NCBI RefSeq assembly: GCF_012927185.1
Contig: NZ_JABBGB010000001.1
Coordinates: 868,001-932,000, forward strand
Direction: 5' to 3'
Length of the DNA stretch: 64,000 bases
DNA from: Pseudoflavitalea sp. G-6-1-2
GTDB taxonomy: Bacteria; Bacteroidota; Bacteroidia; Chitinophagales; Chitinophagaceae
Every line of letters starts with the position of its first letter. Positions within the stretch are counted from its first letter, which is position 1. The notes beneath the pieces are model-generated. The model was given only the letters and a program-made list of their open reading frames with translations, did no database searches and had not been told where the DNA came from. This document shows positions 25,903-45,153 of this stretch, in pieces. The translations under genes were made by a program, and so were the position numbers.

Positions 25903-25918
25903 AGTTCCACGTGGAACA
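25903..25918. promoter_or_regulatory. parS-like site 1
   Basis: AGTTCCACGTGGAACA is a 14-bp perfect palindrome (GTTCCACGTGGAAC) with a matching final A. It differs at one position from TGTTCCACGTGGAACA, a common variant of the ParB-binding parS consensus. Confidence 0.75.
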
Positions 25919-26445: not shown

Positions 26446-28308
26446 ATGATATTCCCAACATATGATGTTATAGTGGTTGGTGCAGGACATGCAGGATGTG
26501 AAGCCGCAGCCTCTGCCGCCAACCTTGGCTCTAAGGTTTTGCTCATCACCATGAACATGCAGACCATTGCCCAGATGAGTTGCAACCCTGCCATGGGAGG
26601 TATTGCAAAAGGACAAATCGTGCGTGAGATCGATGCCCTCGGTGGTTACTCTGGTATAGTTACCGACCTTAGCATGATCCAGTTCAGGATGCTCAACAGG
26701 TCTAAAGGTCCTGCCATGTGGAGCCCCCGTACTCAAAACGACCGCATGCTTTTCGCTGCTACCTGGAGAGAAAAGCTCGAACAAACTAAGAATGTAGATT
26801 TCTATCAGGATATGGTTCGCTCCATCATCATCAAGGATGGCAGAGCTGCTGGTGTAGTTACCGGCCTTGGCCACTCCATTAACTCAAAAGCGGTGGTAGT
26901 TACCAGCGGAACCTTCCTTAACGGAATCATCCATATCGGTGAGAAACAGTTTGGAGGTGGACGTGTTGCTGAGAAAGCAGCCACCGGTATCACCGAACAA
27001 TTGGTTGAACTCGGATTTGAAGCAGATCGCCTCAAGACCGGAACCCCTCCCCGTGTTGATGGAAGATCCCTCGATTACTCCAGGATGGAGGAGCAAAAAG
27101 GTGATGATGAAATCACCGGATTCTCTTACACCAATACTCCGAAACCAACCAGACAGATCAGCTGCTGGATCACCTATACCAATCAGAAAGTACACGACCT
27201 GCTGAAAACAGGTTTCGACAGAAGTCCTATGTACTCCGGAAGAATTGAAGGAACCGGTCCGAGATATTGCCCAAGCATCGAAGACAAGATCAGCCGCTTT
27301 GCTGAAAGGGAACGTCACCAACTCTTTGTGGAACCCGAAGGATGGAATACCTGCGAGATCTATGTAAACGGATTCTCTACTTCCCTCCCCGAAGAAGTAC
27401 AGTACGAAGCTTTGAAACAGGTTCCCGGTTTTGAGAACGTGAGAATATTCCGTCCGGGTTATGCCATTGAGTATGATTATTTTCCACCTACTCAGCTTAC
27501 GCATTCCCTCGAAACAAAACTGATCAGCAATCTTTTCTTTGCCGGACAGATCAACGGAACTACCGGATATGAAGAAGCTGCCTGCCAGGGATTGATGGCT
27601 GGTATCAATGCACACCAGAAAGTAAGAGAACTGGAACCGGTTATTCTGAAACGCAGTGATGCTTATATCGGTGTACTCATCGATGATCTTATCAGCAAGG
27701 GAACCGAAGAACCATATCGCATGTTCACCTCACGCGCCGAGTACAGAACTTTGCTGAGACAGGATAATGCAGATCTCCGATTAACAGAACTGAGTTATCG
27801 TCTTGGACTTGCTTCCCAGGAAAGAATGGACGCCGTTATCACCAAGAGGAACGGAACAGAAAAGATCAGGCAGCTGATGAAAGAAATTTCAGTAGATCCG
27901 CTGGAAGCAGATCCTTTTCTGATCGCAAACAATTCTGCCCCAATGCCGCATAAGCAGAAATCGATTCAGTTGCTGCTTCGTCCGAATATAACATTGTCAG
28001 CAATGATCGAAGCAATGCCTTCGCTCGCTCCTCTGAAAGAATTTGCTCCGGAGATTATCGAGCAGGCAGAGATCCAGATAAAATACGATACCTACATCGA
28101 GAAAGAAAAAGAGATCGTGAAAAAAATGAGTCAGCTCGAAGATCTGATGATCCCCGAGAATTTCGATTACGACAGAGTTTCTGCTTTGTCGAATGAAGCG
28201 CTTCAAAAATTCAAAAAGATTAAACCCAGAACATTGGGTCAGGCAAGTCGCATCAGCGGAGTTAATCCGAGCGATGTGCAGATTCTGATGGTGTATATGG
28301 GAAGATAG
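26446..28308 (+). CDS. mnmG: tRNA uridine-5-carboxymethylaminomethyl(34) synthesis enzyme MnmG
   Basis: A 620-residue MnmG (GidA). The FAD-binding dinucleotide fold VVGAGHAGCEAA is at residues 11-22. It is followed by the family signature SCNPAMGGIAKGQIVREIDALGG, then GTPPRVDGRSLDYS, and FFAGQINGTTGYEEAACQGLMAG near the middle; the C-terminal helical domain is complete. With MnmE it modifies U34 of several tRNAs. In many bacteria this gene adjoins the replication origin, and here parS sites and DnaA boxes lie close by. Confidence 0.97.
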   Translation: MIFPTYDVIVVGAGHAGCEAAASAANLGSKVLLITMNMQTIAQMSCNPAMGGIAKGQIVREIDALGGYSGIVTDLSMIQFRMLNRSKGPAMWSPRTQNDRMLFAATWREKLEQTKNVDFYQDMVRSIIIKDGRAAGVVTGLGHSINSKAVVVTSGTFLNGIIHIGEKQFGGGRVAEKAATGITEQLVELGFEADRLKTGTPPRVDGRSLDYSRMEEQKGDDEITGFSYTNTPKPTRQISCWITYTNQKVHDLLKTGFDRSPMYSGRIEGTGPRYCPSIEDKISRFAERERHQLFVEPEGWNTCEIYVNGFSTSLPEEVQYEALKQVPGFENVRIFRPGYAIEYDYFPPTQLTHSLETKLISNLFFAGQINGTTGYEEAACQGLMAGINAHQKVRELEPVILKRSDAYIGVLIDDLISKGTEEPYRMFTSRAEYRTLLRQDNADLRLTELSYRLGLASQERMDAVITKRNGTEKIRQLMKEISVDPLEADPFLIANNSAPMPHKQKSIQLLLRPNITLSAMIEAMPSLAPLKEFAPEIIEQAEIQIKYDTYIEKEKEIVKKMSQLEDLMIPENFDYDRVSALSNEALQKFKKIKPRTLGQASRISGVNPSDVQILMVYMGR

Positions 28309-28845: not shown

Positions 28846-28883
28846 AATTCCTGATTTACTGTTTCTGAAAAAATATCAGTCTA

Positions 28884-28891
28884 CAAATTTA
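28884..28891 (-). promoter_or_regulatory. -7 promoter element (TAAATTTG) of msrC
   Basis: The minus strand reads TAAATTTG, a TAnnTTTG match, 38 bp before the msrC start. The adjacent DnaA box at 28898-28906 falls within the region RNA polymerase would cover, so DnaA could repress msrC. Confidence 0.42.
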
Positions 28892-28897
28892 ATAGAC

Positions 28898-29106
28898 TTA
28901 TCCACATTATTCACCATTCGATTTCGAAAACATCTTCAGACAGCTCAAATTTCTCTCCTTTCACTATTTCACACCGAGATACCCACAACTTATATTCAAA
29001 GGTCTAAAAACAGCTTTAGAATAATCGGAGAAGGCATCCGGATGTTCTGCGTTGATGCAGAAAAAACAAAATCGAAATGCTGCTTTTCCACATTTTCTGT
29101 GGATAA
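28898..29106. promoter_or_regulatory. DnaA-box group between msrC and nadA
   Basis: A perfect plus-strand DnaA box TTATCCACA is at 28898-28906, followed directly by TTATTCACC (28907-28915). A perfect minus-strand box (TGTGGATAA) is at 29098-29106, with a one-mismatch TTTTCCACA at 29084-29092. These lie in the 266-bp gap between msrC and nadA, about 1 kb from the denser group at 30.2 kb. Confidence 0.6.
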
Positions 29107-29111
29107 TTCTT

Positions 29112-30122
29112 CTACAATCCGTATCTGGCGCTGATTTCAAGCATTCTGTCGATCGGTTTACGCGCTGCCTGGCGCAAAGTTTCGTCCATGTGGATCTCAG
29201 GCAGCTCATATTTCATACACAGATATAATTTTTCTAATGTATTCAGCTTCATGTGTGGACAATCATTGCAGGCACAGCTGTTGTCTGGTGGTGCGGGAAT
29301 GAAAGTTTTTTCGGGAGAGGCTTTCTGCATCTGATGCAGTATGCCGGTTTCTGTTGCCACGATGTATTCTGTGCCGCTGTCTTCCTGAGTGAATTTCAGC
29401 AGGCCTGTTGTTGAACCGATGTAGTCTGCATGACGAAGCAGTGCTTCTTCACACTCAGGGTGTGCGATCAGCTTTGCATTCGGATGACGCACTTTCAGTT
29501 TCAGGATCTTTTCGAGACTGAAGATCTCGTGCACCATGCATGCGCCATTCCACAGCACCATATCCCTACCCGTTTTTTTCACCAGATAAGCCCCAAGGTT
29601 CTTGTCGGGTGCAAAGATGATCTTCTGATCGGCGGGAATGCTTTCAACGATTTTTTGGGCATTGCTCGAAGTGCAGATGATATCGCTGAGCGCCTTGATG
29701 TCGGCAGTGCAGTTGATGTAGGAAATCACCAGGTGATCGGGATGCTGCTCTTTGAACTTCCTGAATGCAGCCGCCGGGGCACTGTCGGCCAGTGAACAAC
29801 CCGCTTTCAGATCGGGCAGCAATACTTTTTTGTTTGGATTGAGGATCTTGGCAGTTTCAGCCATGAAATGCACACCCGCAAAAACGATGATGTCCGCATT
29901 GGTTTTGGCTGCTTCCTGCGCAAGGCCGAGACTGTCCCCGATATAATCCGCCACATCCTGGATATCGGGCTCCTGGTAGTAGTGCGCGAGCACGATGGCG
30001 TTCTTTTCTTTTTTCAATTTTTCGATCTCCGAAAAAAGATCGATCTGCGGATCTACATCGATGTCGAGAAAACCTGCCTGCTCCACATTTTCTTTTGCAA
30101 AACCTATGTTGATATCTCCCAT
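29112..30122 (-). CDS. nadA: Quinolinate synthase A
   Basis: A 336-residue NadA of normal length. Three cysteines for the 4Fe-4S cluster are in [10 protein letters not shown], in WNGACMVHE and in [12 protein letters not shown] near the C-terminus. The N-terminal [22 protein letters not shown] motif is typical. NadA condenses iminoaspartate with dihydroxyacetone phosphate to quinolinate. nadB and nadC are not adjacent. Its start faces the candidate oriC. Confidence 0.96.
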
Positions 30123-30700
30123 AGTATTCTATATTAATTAATTATTTTTATAAAAACCCTATTACTATTACGGCTGTGGATTAGTGGATAATTCCTCCAC
30201 GTTAAATTTTGGTAAAGTTACAACAACGTGTTTATCCACAGTTATCCACAATTCCTTCACATTCAATAATCTCCGTCTGTGCTACATTTCCGGCTCTTTT
30301 CCACTTTGGTGGATTAAAAATGCACCCGGATAAAAACATACCTCTCAACAACAAATTTTTCTGTTAGTTGGTGTGGAATAACCTGGGGTTTATGTACACA
30401 GTCCGGAAGGCCGGACGACTCTTCGAAACTTACAACCCAACAATCCACGGTTGGCGATGTGCAAAAACCGGGGTTATCCACACAAAAACATGGTTATTAA
30501 CGACCCTGCGGGGAAACTGTTTTCACGGCACAGTTTCACGGTTTTCCTAACCGCCTGCAAATTGGTGTGGAAAGCCGAAATTTCAAAATCGACAAACCCT
30601 TTGGTGATGCTGCTTTTACGGTTTTTTCCACAGTTTGTTCATAAATGTATTTCCCTTATTTTTGCCATCCGTTTCAAAAACCGTACGGACTTATATCACT
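30123..30700. other. Candidate chromosomal replication origin (oriC)
   Basis: A 578-bp non-coding region between nadA and the ppiD-like gene. It has three perfect DnaA boxes TTATCCACA on the plus strand: 30232-30240 and 30242-30250 in tandem with a 1-bp gap, and 30474-30482. One-mismatch boxes are at 30175-30183, 30183-30191 and 30624-30632. The left edge (about 30121-30170) is a strongly AT-rich block (TATTAATTAATTATTTTTATAAA) suited to be the duplex-unwinding element. mnmG, parS sites and dnaN nearby add support. dnaA itself is elsewhere, so this is a strong but unproven call. Confidence 0.7.
30634..30664 (+). promoter_or_regulatory. Consensus Bacteroidota promoter of the ppiD-like gene
   Basis: TTTG at 30634-30637, exactly 19 bp, then TATTTTTG at 30657-30664: a perfect match to TTTG-N19-TAnnTTTG. 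The start codon is 36 bp downstream. A DnaA-like box (30624-30632) lies just before the -33 element. Confidence 0.8.
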
Positions 30701-32842
30701 ATGTCAGTTATTCAAACTATCCGCGACAAAGCCGCGTGGATCATTATCGCTGCGATTGCGCTAGCCCTTATCGCCTTTATTGTTCAGGATGCTTTCCAGG
30801 GCCGCGGTGGCGGACTCTTTGGAAGTTCAAGCGACGTTATTGGAAAAGTGGACGGAAAGAAAATTGATGCGTACGAGTTTGATAAAAGGTATAGAGCTGC
30901 AGAAGCAAACTACCAGGCACAAAACTATCCTGTTGATGAGCGTCTCCGCCAGCAGATCCGCGATGGTCTCTGGAATGAGTATGTAGAAGATGCTATCCTC
31001 AGCAAAGAATTCGACAAACTGGGTTTTGCTCAGCTTGGCAAAGATGAGCGTGGTGATATTCTTTATGGTGTAAATCCTCCGCAGGTTCTCCGCCAGCAGT
31101 TCACCAATCCTCAGACCGGCCAGTATGATGCAACAGCTGCTCATCAGGCGATCTCCCAACTTAAAAAGAACAGTGCTCAATATAACAGCTTCTGGGGTGA
31201 GTTTGTTCCGGCTCTGGAAAAATCGAGGATGAAAGAAAAATTCGTTTCTCTCATCGCTTCCAGCGCTTACACTCCAAAATGGCTGGCAGAAAAGATCAAT
31301 GCCGAAAACAGCCAGGTTTCTTCTATCTCTTATGTAAATGTTCCTTATGCTTCTGTTGGAGACTCTTCAATTAAAGTTTCTGATGAAGATGTTCGTGATT
31401 ATGTGAATAAACATAAAGAAATTTATCAGCAGGAAGAAGCAAGAGGTATTGAATATGTATTGTTCGATGCTGCTCCTACAAAGGCCGACAGCGCTATCTC
31501 TTATGATGCAGTTGCCAATGTGAGAAACGAATTCGGAACCACTGCAGAAAAAGATATCGATCAGTTCCTCTCCCGCAACAACAGCGAAACGCCTTTCTTC
31601 AACGGATACATCCTTGGCTCGAACATCAAAGTTGCTCAGGCCGATACTATCAAGAGACTGGCAGACGGAACAGTGTATGGTCCTTACCTCGATGGTGGAA
31701 ACTATACCCTCGCAAAAATGATCAGCCGCAGATCAATTCCTGATTCTGTAAAAACAAGACATATCCTCATCAAAATTTCCGATCCTCAGGCCGGACCACT
31801 CAGAACCGACAGCGCTGCAAAAGCACTGATCGACAGCATCACTGCTGCTATCCGCGGCGGAGCAAGCTTCGACAGCATGGTGGTTAAGTACAGCGACGAT
31901 CCGGGCAGCAAAGACAAACATGGTGAGTACGAATTCTCTTCTCTCCAGTTTGGAAACCTGAGCAAAGAATTCGCTGAAACAGTTTTCTACGGAGCTACCG
32001 GCGACAAGAAAACTGTGAAAGTCGAAAACCAGGCTTACAGCGGATACCATTATATAGAAGTACTCAGTCAGAAAGGAATCGGAACCGGATATAAAGTTGC
32101 GTACCTCAGCAGACCAATCATCGCAAGCCCCGAAACGGTGAACGGTGCTTCACTTGCTGCCGCTACTTTCGCTCAGGAGAGCCGCGACAAAAAATCTTTC
32201 GACGACAACGTGAAGAAGAAGAACCTGAACAAATATCCTGCAATGGATATCAAGCCGCTGGAATCCGGAATTCCTGGTCTCGGTGAAAACCGCGAGCTGG
32301 TGACCTGGATGTTCAGAACTGCAAAAGTTGGTCAGGTTGCAGAGCACCCTTATCAGATCGGCGACAAATTTGTAGTACCTATTCTCGCAGCTGCTTATGA
32401 AAAAGGAAATATGTCGGTAGACCGTGCAAGACCACAGGTTGAATACAAAATCCGCAATCTTAAAAAAGCAGACGAGATCATTAAGAAAGTAGGAAGCGCC
32501 AATACACTCGATGCCATCAGCAAAGCTGCCAACCAACCTGTACTGAGAGCAGACAGCATTCAGTTCAGCAATCCGTTTGTAGCCAATGTTGGTAACGAAC
32601 CTAAACTGATCGGTGCATCTTTCAACAAAGCGAACCAAACAGCAGTGTCTTCACCGGTTGTAGGTGAGCTGGGTGTGTTCTATGTGAAGATCGACAACCT
32701 CGGTGCACAGCCAAACCCCAACTTCGATGTTAAGCAGGTTCAGCAAATGATGAATCAGCAACAGAGAATGGCAGGAATGCGTGTACTCGATGCACTGAAA
32801 AAATCAGCAGACATTAAAGATTACCGTATCAAGTTCTTCTAA
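30701..32842 (+). CDS. PpiD/SurA-type periplasmic peptidyl-prolyl isomerase
   Basis: About 713 residues with an N-terminal membrane anchor (AAWIIIAAIALALIAFIVQDAF, residues about 11-32), a SurA_N-like helical region to about 230, and a parvulin domain starting at KTRHILIKISD with the conserved AGASFDSMVVKYSDDPGSKDKHGE-type segment. A second, divergent rotamase-like part follows. The layout is that of PpiD, an inner-membrane-anchored periplasmic folding helper for outer-membrane and secreted proteins. The ATG at 30701 is used because the consensus promoter lies between it and the upstream in-frame ATG at 30635. A strong terminator follows. Confidence 0.9.
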   Translation: MSVIQTIRDKAAWIIIAAIALALIAFIVQDAFQGRGGGLFGSSSDVIGKVDGKKIDAYEFDKRYRAAEANYQAQNYPVDERLRQQIRDGLWNEYVEDAILSKEFDKLGFAQLGKDERGDILYGVNPPQVLRQQFTNPQTGQYDATAAHQAISQLKKNSAQYNSFWGEFVPALEKSRMKEKFVSLIASSAYTPKWLAEKINAENSQVSSISYVNVPYASVGDSSIKVSDEDVRDYVNKHKEIYQQEEARGIEYVLFDAAPTKADSAISYDAVANVRNEFGTTAEKDIDQFLSRNNSETPFFNGYILGSNIKVAQADTIKRLADGTVYGPYLDGGNYTLAKMISRRSIPDSVKTRHILIKISDPQAGPLRTDSAAKALIDSITAAIRGGASFDSMVVKYSDDPGSKDKHGEYEFSSLQFGNLSKEFAETVFYGATGDKKTVKVENQAYSGYHYIEVLSQKGIGTGYKVAYLSRPIIASPETVNGASLAAATFAQESRDKKSFDDNVKKKNLNKYPAMDIKPLESGIPGLGENRELVTWMFRTAKVGQVAEHPYQIGDKFVVPILAAAYEKGNMSVDRARPQVEYKIRNLKKADEIIKKVGSANTLDAISKAANQPVLRADSIQFSNPFVANVGNEPKLIGASFNKANQTAVSSPVVGELGVFYVKIDNLGAQPNPNFDVKQVQQMMNQQQRMAGMRVLDALKKSADIKDYRIKFF

Positions 32843-43802: not shown

Positions 43803-44918
43803 TTAACTGTTCAGCATCAGTGGCATAACCAGCATCAGCATCTCTTCGTTCTCTTCCTGCTCGGTTGGTTTAATGATACCGGCCTTAGTGGGGGTGCTCA
43901 GTTCGATCACCACATCATCACTTTCGGCGGCATTCAGCATTTCGATGAGGAACTTACCGTTGAAGGCAATCTGCAGGTCTTCGCCATTGTACTGGCACTT
44001 CATGCGCTCGGTTCCTTCAAAAGAGAAGTCTACGTCCTGTGCAGCCAGTTGCAGTTCGCTTCCGCTGATATTGAGCACAACCTGGTTGGTGCTTTTGTTA
44101 CTGAAGATGCTCACGCGGCGGAGTGCGCCCTGGAAGTCACCTTTATTGATAGTGAGTTTGTACGGATTGTCTGCAGGGATTACCACGCGGTAATCAGGGA
44201 AACGTGCATCGATCAGGCGACAGCTCATCTGAGTAGTGCCATGTTTAACGAAGAGGTGATTGCTGTTGTAGTTGATCACCAGTTCGTCGTCGTTATCGGG
44301 CATGGCTGATTTCAGCAGGTTGAGCGGTTTCTTGGGAACGATCAGTGAATCTGTTTTAGGGCAGCTCACATCAATTCTTTTATAGCGAACGAGGCGGTGA
44401 GCATCGGTTGCTACAAACTGCAATCCTTTCTTGTCCATTTCAAAGTACACACCTGTCATGGCCGGACGCAGATCGTCACTGCTCACAGCAAACAGGGTTT
44501 TATTGATGGCAGTAACCAGTGCAGAAGAGGTCATGGTGAAAGAAGTGGTATCATCAGCTACCGGTTCTTTCGGGAAATTGTCCGGGTTCTCTCCCATCAC
44601 TTTATACTTACCGTTATCACTGGTAAGCTCTACACCGAAGTTCTTATCGATATTGAAAGTAAGTGGCTGGTCCGGAATGTTTTTCAGAGAGTCCATCAGG
44701 ATTTTGGCAGGGATACACACACGGCCGGCATCTTTCGCTTCTACGTCCATCTGGATCTTCATCACAGTTTCGAGGTCAGTAGCTACTACGGTCAGTTTGT
44801 TTTTATCCACCTCAAACAGAAAATCTTCAAGGATTGGCAAAACTGTATTGGCGTTGATCACACCGCTGATCTGTTGCAACTGTTTCAACAAAGCCGAGGA
44901 AGAAACTATAAACTTCAT
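43803..44918 (-). CDS. dnaN: DNA polymerase III subunit beta (sliding clamp)
   Basis: A 371-residue clamp made of three similar domains. The N-terminus MKFIVSSSALLKQLQQISG and the C-terminal ending LMLVMPLML (the conserved PMR/PML-type tail) match the family. The frame stays open to 45071, but the ATG at 44918 starts the conserved domain and has a -7 element 20 bp upstream. The clamp tethers polymerase to DNA. Being 14 kb from the candidate oriC fits a gene often close to the origin, though dnaA is not adjacent. Confidence 0.96.
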   Translation of the reverse strand: MKFIVSSSALLKQLQQISGVINANTVLPILEDFLFEVDKNKLTVVATDLETVMKIQMDVEAKDAGRVCIPAKILMDSLKNIPDQPLTFNIDKNFGVELTSDNGKYKVMGENPDNFPKEPVADDTTSFTMTSSALVTAINKTLFAVSSDDLRPAMTGVYFEMDKKGLQFVATDAHRLVRYKRIDVSCPKTDSLIVPKKPLNLLKSAMPDNDDELVINYNSNHLFVKHGTTQMSCRLIDARFPDYRVVIPADNPYKLTINKGDFQGALRRVSIFSNKSTNQVVLNISGSELQLAAQDVDFSFEGTERMKCQYNGEDLQIAFNGKFLIEMLNAAESDDVVIELSTPTKAGIIKPTEQEENEEMLMLVMPLMLNS

Positions 44919-44938
44919 ATAATAGTTTAAGATTTGAG

Positions 44939-44946
44939 CAAATATA
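44939..44946 (-). promoter_or_regulatory. -7 promoter element (TATATTTG) of dnaN
   Basis: The minus strand reads TATATTTG, a TAnnTTTG match, 20 bp before the dnaN ATG at 44918. It supports this start over the longer frame. Confidence 0.5.
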
Positions 44947-45153
44947 GAATTATGAATGATACCTTTCACCTGTTTTTTTGAACAGGCAGGCCCCCCTGTT
45001 GTTAGCAACCAATGTATGCGGGTTGGCCTGCCGGTGGCCAGTTTCCGGCAACCTTGCAAGGTTGGTTGCAAAAGCCGTTAAATTGAATAACTTCATGCCC
45101 TCATTCGGGTTCCCGGTATCGGGCATTTTAATAAAAGATATATATTATTGAAT

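Follow-up and report, generated by a model that had tools for sequence, protein, structure and literature searches.

A probable chromosomal origin of replication beside nadA and distant from dnaA in a lineage of the Chitinophagaceae

In Escherichia coli, oriC is located between gidA/mnmG and mioC, far from dnaA, and sites of the datA/DARS type are dense DnaA-box clusters away from dnaA. The basal unwinding system (BUS) of Bacillus subtilis comprises two DnaA boxes, a GC spacer, DnaA-trios and an AT-rich duplex-unwinding element (DUE) (PMC6669920, PMC8287927, PMC10201434). Trios of the form 3'-[G/A]A[T/A]-5' are a feature of this system (PMC10201434, PMC7561715), and the BUS program searches for a DnaA box with at most two mismatches that lies 0-16 bp from three or more NAN triplets (PMC8287927). 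Read from the boxes to the AT block, the origin of B. subtilis presents CTACTATTACTTCTACTA, with the trios on the complementary strand (PMC10201434), that of C. difficile CTACTACTATTACTACTA (PMC7561715) and that of H. pylori YTR triplets (PMC8235120). The DUE of T. maritima contains TTATT, a TAG eTrio and a DnaA-trio; its TAG triplets are on the strand running from the AT block to the boxes, the same polarity as in the other published origins (PMC10316083). No paper describing the oriC of the family Chitinophagaceae was found in our literature search, nor anything on a nadA-linked origin; DoriC was outside this search, and a prediction may exist there.

The window, a stretch of 64,000 nucleotides of Pseudoflavitalea sp. 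G-6-1-2 (C1:868001-932000 of a 6.12-Mb genome in six contigs), contains a non-coding gap of 578 bp between nadA and a ppiD-like gene. This gap is very probably the chromosomal oriC of this Chitinophagaceae lineage, because a box cluster, an AT-rich block, nearby parS sites, a family core present in a single copy and a skew change in a complete genome of the same genus coincide there. They support the reading as an origin that was proposed in a preliminary description of the sequence. The features are, in window coordinates:

25903..25918, parS-like site AGTTCCACGTGGAACA, one of the two in the genome
26392..26407, parS-like site AGTTCCACGTGGAACA, the other of the two
26446-28308, plus strand, mnmG
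28898..29106, second box cluster past nadA: perfect box at 28898 (+), one-mismatch box at 29084 (+), perfect box at 29098 (-)
29112..30122, minus strand, nadA (quinolinate synthase), the steadiest neighbour of the core
30123..30700, nadA-ppiD intergenic gap, the proposed oriC region, with six boxes, AT block and conserved core
30121..30170, AT-rich block, 88 % AT, proposed duplex-unwinding element, its right end overlapping the repeat
30159..30170, plus strand, DnaA-trio-like repeat CTA TTA CTA TTA (minus strand TAATAGTAATAG), conserved in the family
30171..30174, GC-rich spacer CGGC, read from the sequence
30175..30183, minus strand, DnaA box TAATCCACA, one mismatch, proximal to the repeat, position conserved
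30183..30191, minus strand, DnaA box TTATCCACT, one mismatch, second of the pair, position conserved
30207..30226, plus strand, conserved element TTTTGGTAAAGTTACAACAA, close to invariant among close relatives
30232..30240, plus strand, perfect DnaA box from the motif scan, first of the tandem pair
30242..30250, plus strand, perfect DnaA box from the motif scan, second of the tandem pair
30474..30482, plus strand, perfect DnaA box, found at the same position in the genus and in Niastella
30624..30632, plus strand, DnaA box TTTTCCACA, one mismatch, immediately upstream of the ppiD promoter, retained by most family members
30634-30637 (TTTG) and 30657-30664 (TATTTTTG), putative Bacteroidota-type ppiD promoter, assigned from the consensus TTTG/TAnnTTTG of this phylum
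30701..32842, plus strand, ppiD-like SurA_N/rotamase gene, a frequent yet not constant neighbour of the core
43803-45071, minus strand, dnaN, 13 kb from the gap

Boxes were scored against the consensus TTATCCACA as perfect or with one mismatch. The three perfect boxes, two of them in tandem, and the three one-mismatch boxes of the preliminary description were all present, and nadA, the ppiD-like gene, mnmG, the two parS-like sites and dnaN were positioned as it had reported. Thirty-eight boxes with at most one mismatch were counted in the window, against 16 ± 3.9 in shuffled sequences. The gap holds six, where a first-order Markov model gave a mean of 0.23 and none of 2000 simulations reached six; a dense box cluster in non-coding DNA is as expected of an oriC. 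Genome-wide, 33 perfect boxes were found, five of them within 1.6 kb (C1:896898-898482) and a sixth nearby at C1 901186. Randomly placed boxes gave four within 1.6 kb in a fraction of 1e-5 of the simulations and five never in 200,000. The tandem TTATCCACAGTTATCCACA occurs once in the genome, even when two mismatches are allowed. The adjoining element is AT-rich by its base content: the block at 30121-30170, correctly described before as strongly AT-rich, is the joint-top 50-bp window of the whole 64 kb, and the block is AT-rich in every relative aligned. A search for structured RNA within the window found none; the predicted DNA hairpin of the box region is moderate (z -2.15) and is accounted for by the opposite orientations of the boxes.

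The core of the gap reads 5'-CTATTACTATTA-CGGC-TGTGGATTA-GTGGATAA-3' on the plus strand and lies between the AT block and the other boxes. The AT-rich block is followed by CTATTACTATTA, the GC spacer and then two DnaA boxes aimed back at the block. Across 1.14 Mb of this genome, the core was the sole site at which a box with no more than one mismatch had four TAN triplets at a distance of 8 bp or less. Five features keep their place in an alignment of the gap with ten close relatives: the core, TTTTGGTAAAGTTACAACAA, the tandem position, the perfect box at 30474 and the box ahead of the ppiD promoter. The element TTTTGGTAAAGTTACAACAA matches no origin element known to us; a role as protein site or promoter is conceivable. 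By the ppiD-like protein, the nearest named relatives are Pseudoflavitalea rhizosphaerae (79 %), a Pseudobacter MAG, Niastella and Longitalea, all of which we take to be Chitinophagaceae.

A comparison with related genomes, proposed with the preliminary description, bore the site out. The pattern TANTANTATTANNNNTGTGNATNNGNGGA, a 29-base signature searched with one mismatch allowed, matched 84 of the 148 genomes of the family; 83 have a single site and G157 has two. Its reversed control had two matches in the family set. In a set of 197 class genomes, the pattern occurred in four of the five that belong to the family and in one of the other 192. An oriC is expected once per chromosome and conserved in relatives, as is seen here. 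The fragmented assembly G157 holds two differing copies (C38:33435 and C40:32289), each near a ppiD match, which probably reflect mixed strains rather than two origins. In the remaining 64 family genomes the pattern was unmatched; some carry a degenerate form, and others, G018, G108, G031, G115 and G006 among them, have neither a degenerate core nor nadA beside ppiD. Sixty-three of the 85 core sites are 416-1043 bp upstream of ppiD on the same strand, and nadA is beside the core in 28 of 30 loci read. In G062, G111 and G022 the distance from the core to ppiD is 528, 55 and 28 kb. The linkage of nadA and ppiD was absent in 27 loci read from other families. Beside mraZ another arrangement was seen: in G031, G115, G045, G051 and G127 (loci L070, L071, L074, L076 and L077; about positions 1420-1610), this gene, whose identity was checked with Pfam for two of the five, is immediately preceded by three perfect boxes, of which two are close to each other. 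These boxes hint that DnaA controls the cluster of division genes, or that G031 and G115, where the nadA core is missing, have an origin there.

The boxes may alternatively belong to a DnaA-controlled double promoter that regulates nadA and ppiD only, with the origin elsewhere, for instance at the skew minimum near C1:1.018 Mb. Divergent promoters are present in the gap, TTTTCCACA abuts the ppiD promoter in most relatives, and the skew minimum of this genome is 120 kb off. However, the genome-wide scan found no perfect box from 945,945 to 1,186,113, and the parS sites and the skew change of complete relatives are located here. Moreover, the core persists where its neighbours change, which a gene-specific operator would not: in some nadA-flanked cores ppiD is replaced by a gene for an S46-like peptidase, by purH or by others (names assigned by eye from translations), and in G017 and G121 core and ppiD are kept and nadA is not beside the core. 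Since it survives the replacement of ppiD and the absence of nadA, the core probably does not serve either gene as an operator and rather is an element that tends to stay beside nadA. We therefore regard a mere double promoter as improbable and prefer oriC as the function of the gap.

With up to one mismatch allowed, the genome has no parS-like sites other than the two that lie 4 kb from the gap, before mnmG; parS nearby is usual for an oriC, not strictly defining. As the reversed control pattern matches four sites, their count is not above chance, and the evidence is their closeness to each other and to the gap, not their number. The position 4 kb from the gap and before mnmG is shared by this genome and seven of nine close relatives. 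The complete genome of the same genus (G154) has two parS-like sites at the matching place and none in the other sampled stretches. These sites also bear on a further alternative, a DnaA-titration or reactivation site of the datA/DARS type near an unrecognised origin. As is generally known from E. coli, such sites are dense box clusters away from dnaA, but they do not need an AT block with a repeat adjoining the boxes, would not be expected beside the only parS sites of the genome, and would leave this genome with no other cluster to serve as origin; this explanation is highly improbable.

An origin beside dnaA, the textbook arrangement, would be the default expectation, but has next to no probability here. 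dnaA, present in a single copy at 1.893 Mb, is 1.0 Mb away from the gap, and dnaN 13 kb. The 16-kb stretch of this genome that was read around dnaA is free of perfect boxes; the denser cluster at dnaA that the preliminary description had named as evidence against the gap does not exist. In 13 complete relatives dnaA is at least 0.4 Mb from the ppiD locus and has no box cluster at its side (no more than three perfect or one-mismatch boxes over some 3.5 kb). The skew is positive on both sides of dnaA in this genome and in G154. In G106, which is numbered from dnaA, the 0.7 Mb ahead of dnaA are positive, thus the sign change is not at dnaA. The gene context without dnaA, which had been called unusual, is indeed so relative to dnaA-linked origins, whereas in this family it is the usual one.

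GC skew was sampled in 20-kb stretches. In the complete G154, 10 of the 11 stretches to one side have negative skew and eight of the nine to the other have positive skew; the sign changes between 1.62 and 1.64 Mb, with the gap at 1.632 Mb, although the flip is bracketed less tightly than these limits suggest, because 1.66-1.74 Mb was unsampled. A local minimum lies 3 kb away from the gap. Of four further complete genomes, three (G050, G106, G128) also change sign at the locus, while G079 has no consistent change; a skew minimum as expected of an oriC is thus seen in these three and in G154, and is not clear in G079 or in the own genome. In the latter the skew is weak, with averages of -0.019 for the stretches left of the window and +0.017 for those to the right. 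The preliminary description had looked to a skew minimum at 30 kb: a merely local minimum, near 0.90 Mb, is indeed close to the site, but over C1:0.70-1.22 Mb the cumulative skew reaches its lowest value at 1,018,549, which is 120 kb away. Given this distance, the skew of this genome is too weak for a precise placement of the origin. A rearrangement as source of the offset was ruled out, as the region is collinear with G154, and a correction for gene strand did not bring the minimum to the gap. In C1:700001-1220000 of this genome (G000) third codon positions are C-rich on the coding strand, with a skew of about -0.15, and thus gene strand disturbs the finding of the origin by GC skew. The tRNA and rRNA genes near the site were too few for an orientation test.

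Two features go beyond the preliminary description, the conserved repeat between AT block and boxes and the second box cluster past nadA. The latter lies in a gap (window 28846-29111) that has one or two boxes in seven of eight relatives examined, and a two-part origin flanking nadA is possible. With oriC of B. subtilis the locus shares a box pair, a short GC spacer, a trinucleotide repeat with constant TA and an AT block in that order, as well as a further box cluster past a neighbouring gene; unlike it, the nadA core is not at dnaA. With oriC of E. coli it shares the position away from dnaA, mnmG three genes off, a box aimed at the AT-rich side and, in part of the family, the E. coli-type TTATT on the same strand, but it differs in its nadA/ppiD flanks, the lack of GATC 13-mers and another box arrangement.

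The repeat matches the published loose pattern, with the box at 30175, a spacer of 3 bp and four triplets. On the strand with its 5' end at the AT-rich side, however, 3'-[G/A]A[T/A]-5' triplets are absent; this strand reads 3'-CAT TAT CAT TAT-5'. From boxes to AT block the sequence is TAATAGTAATAG here versus CTACTATTACTTCTACTA in B. subtilis, and the 3'-[G/A]AT-5' form sits on the strand opposite to the trios of the B. subtilis type. The two free positions of the repeat are pyrimidines in 168 of 170 cases at 85 family sites. As in the family repeat, the T. maritima strand from AT block to boxes begins with CTATTATTA, but T. maritima needs TAGTAGTAG on this strand, where only TAT/TAC triplets are present here. 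As one defining feature was looked for and is absent, membership in the unwinding system of the B. subtilis type is left open. Judged by these triplets, the repeat may be read in two ways, as an opposite-strand trio or as a T-rich, E. coli-like element. Tentatively, and with the odds against it, DnaA might open the family origin on a trio-like repeat of inverted polarity, either with the oligomer on the strand opposite to that in B. subtilis or with DnaA reading 3'-[C/T]AT-5'. Thus three features are unusual for an oriC: the linkage to nadA, the absence of dnaA and a repeat whose trio consensus is on the strand opposite to that of B. subtilis, H. pylori and T. maritima.

As far as sequence can tell, the locus should behave as a DnaA-dependent origin. 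DnaA would bind the pair at 30175-30191 as well as the stronger boxes (30232-30250, 30474). The pair points towards nadA and the AT-rich block there; a DnaA oligomer would spread across the spacer into the CTATTACTATTA repeat. The AT-rich block may then be opened up to the start codon of nadA, and the helicase would be loaded there. In the manner of two-part origins, the second cluster past nadA would serve as accessory lobe, and ParB would use the two parS sites 4 kb off to segregate the new origins.

For the Chitinophagaceae, the 29-base signature would locate the origin beside nadA even in draft genomes. The location would help growth-rate estimates from read depth and correct records that are numbered from dnaA. 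The inverted repeat makes the question of strand capture by DnaA testable in a further phylum; if the inverted polarity is true, the choice of the origin strand or the triplet code would not be universal.
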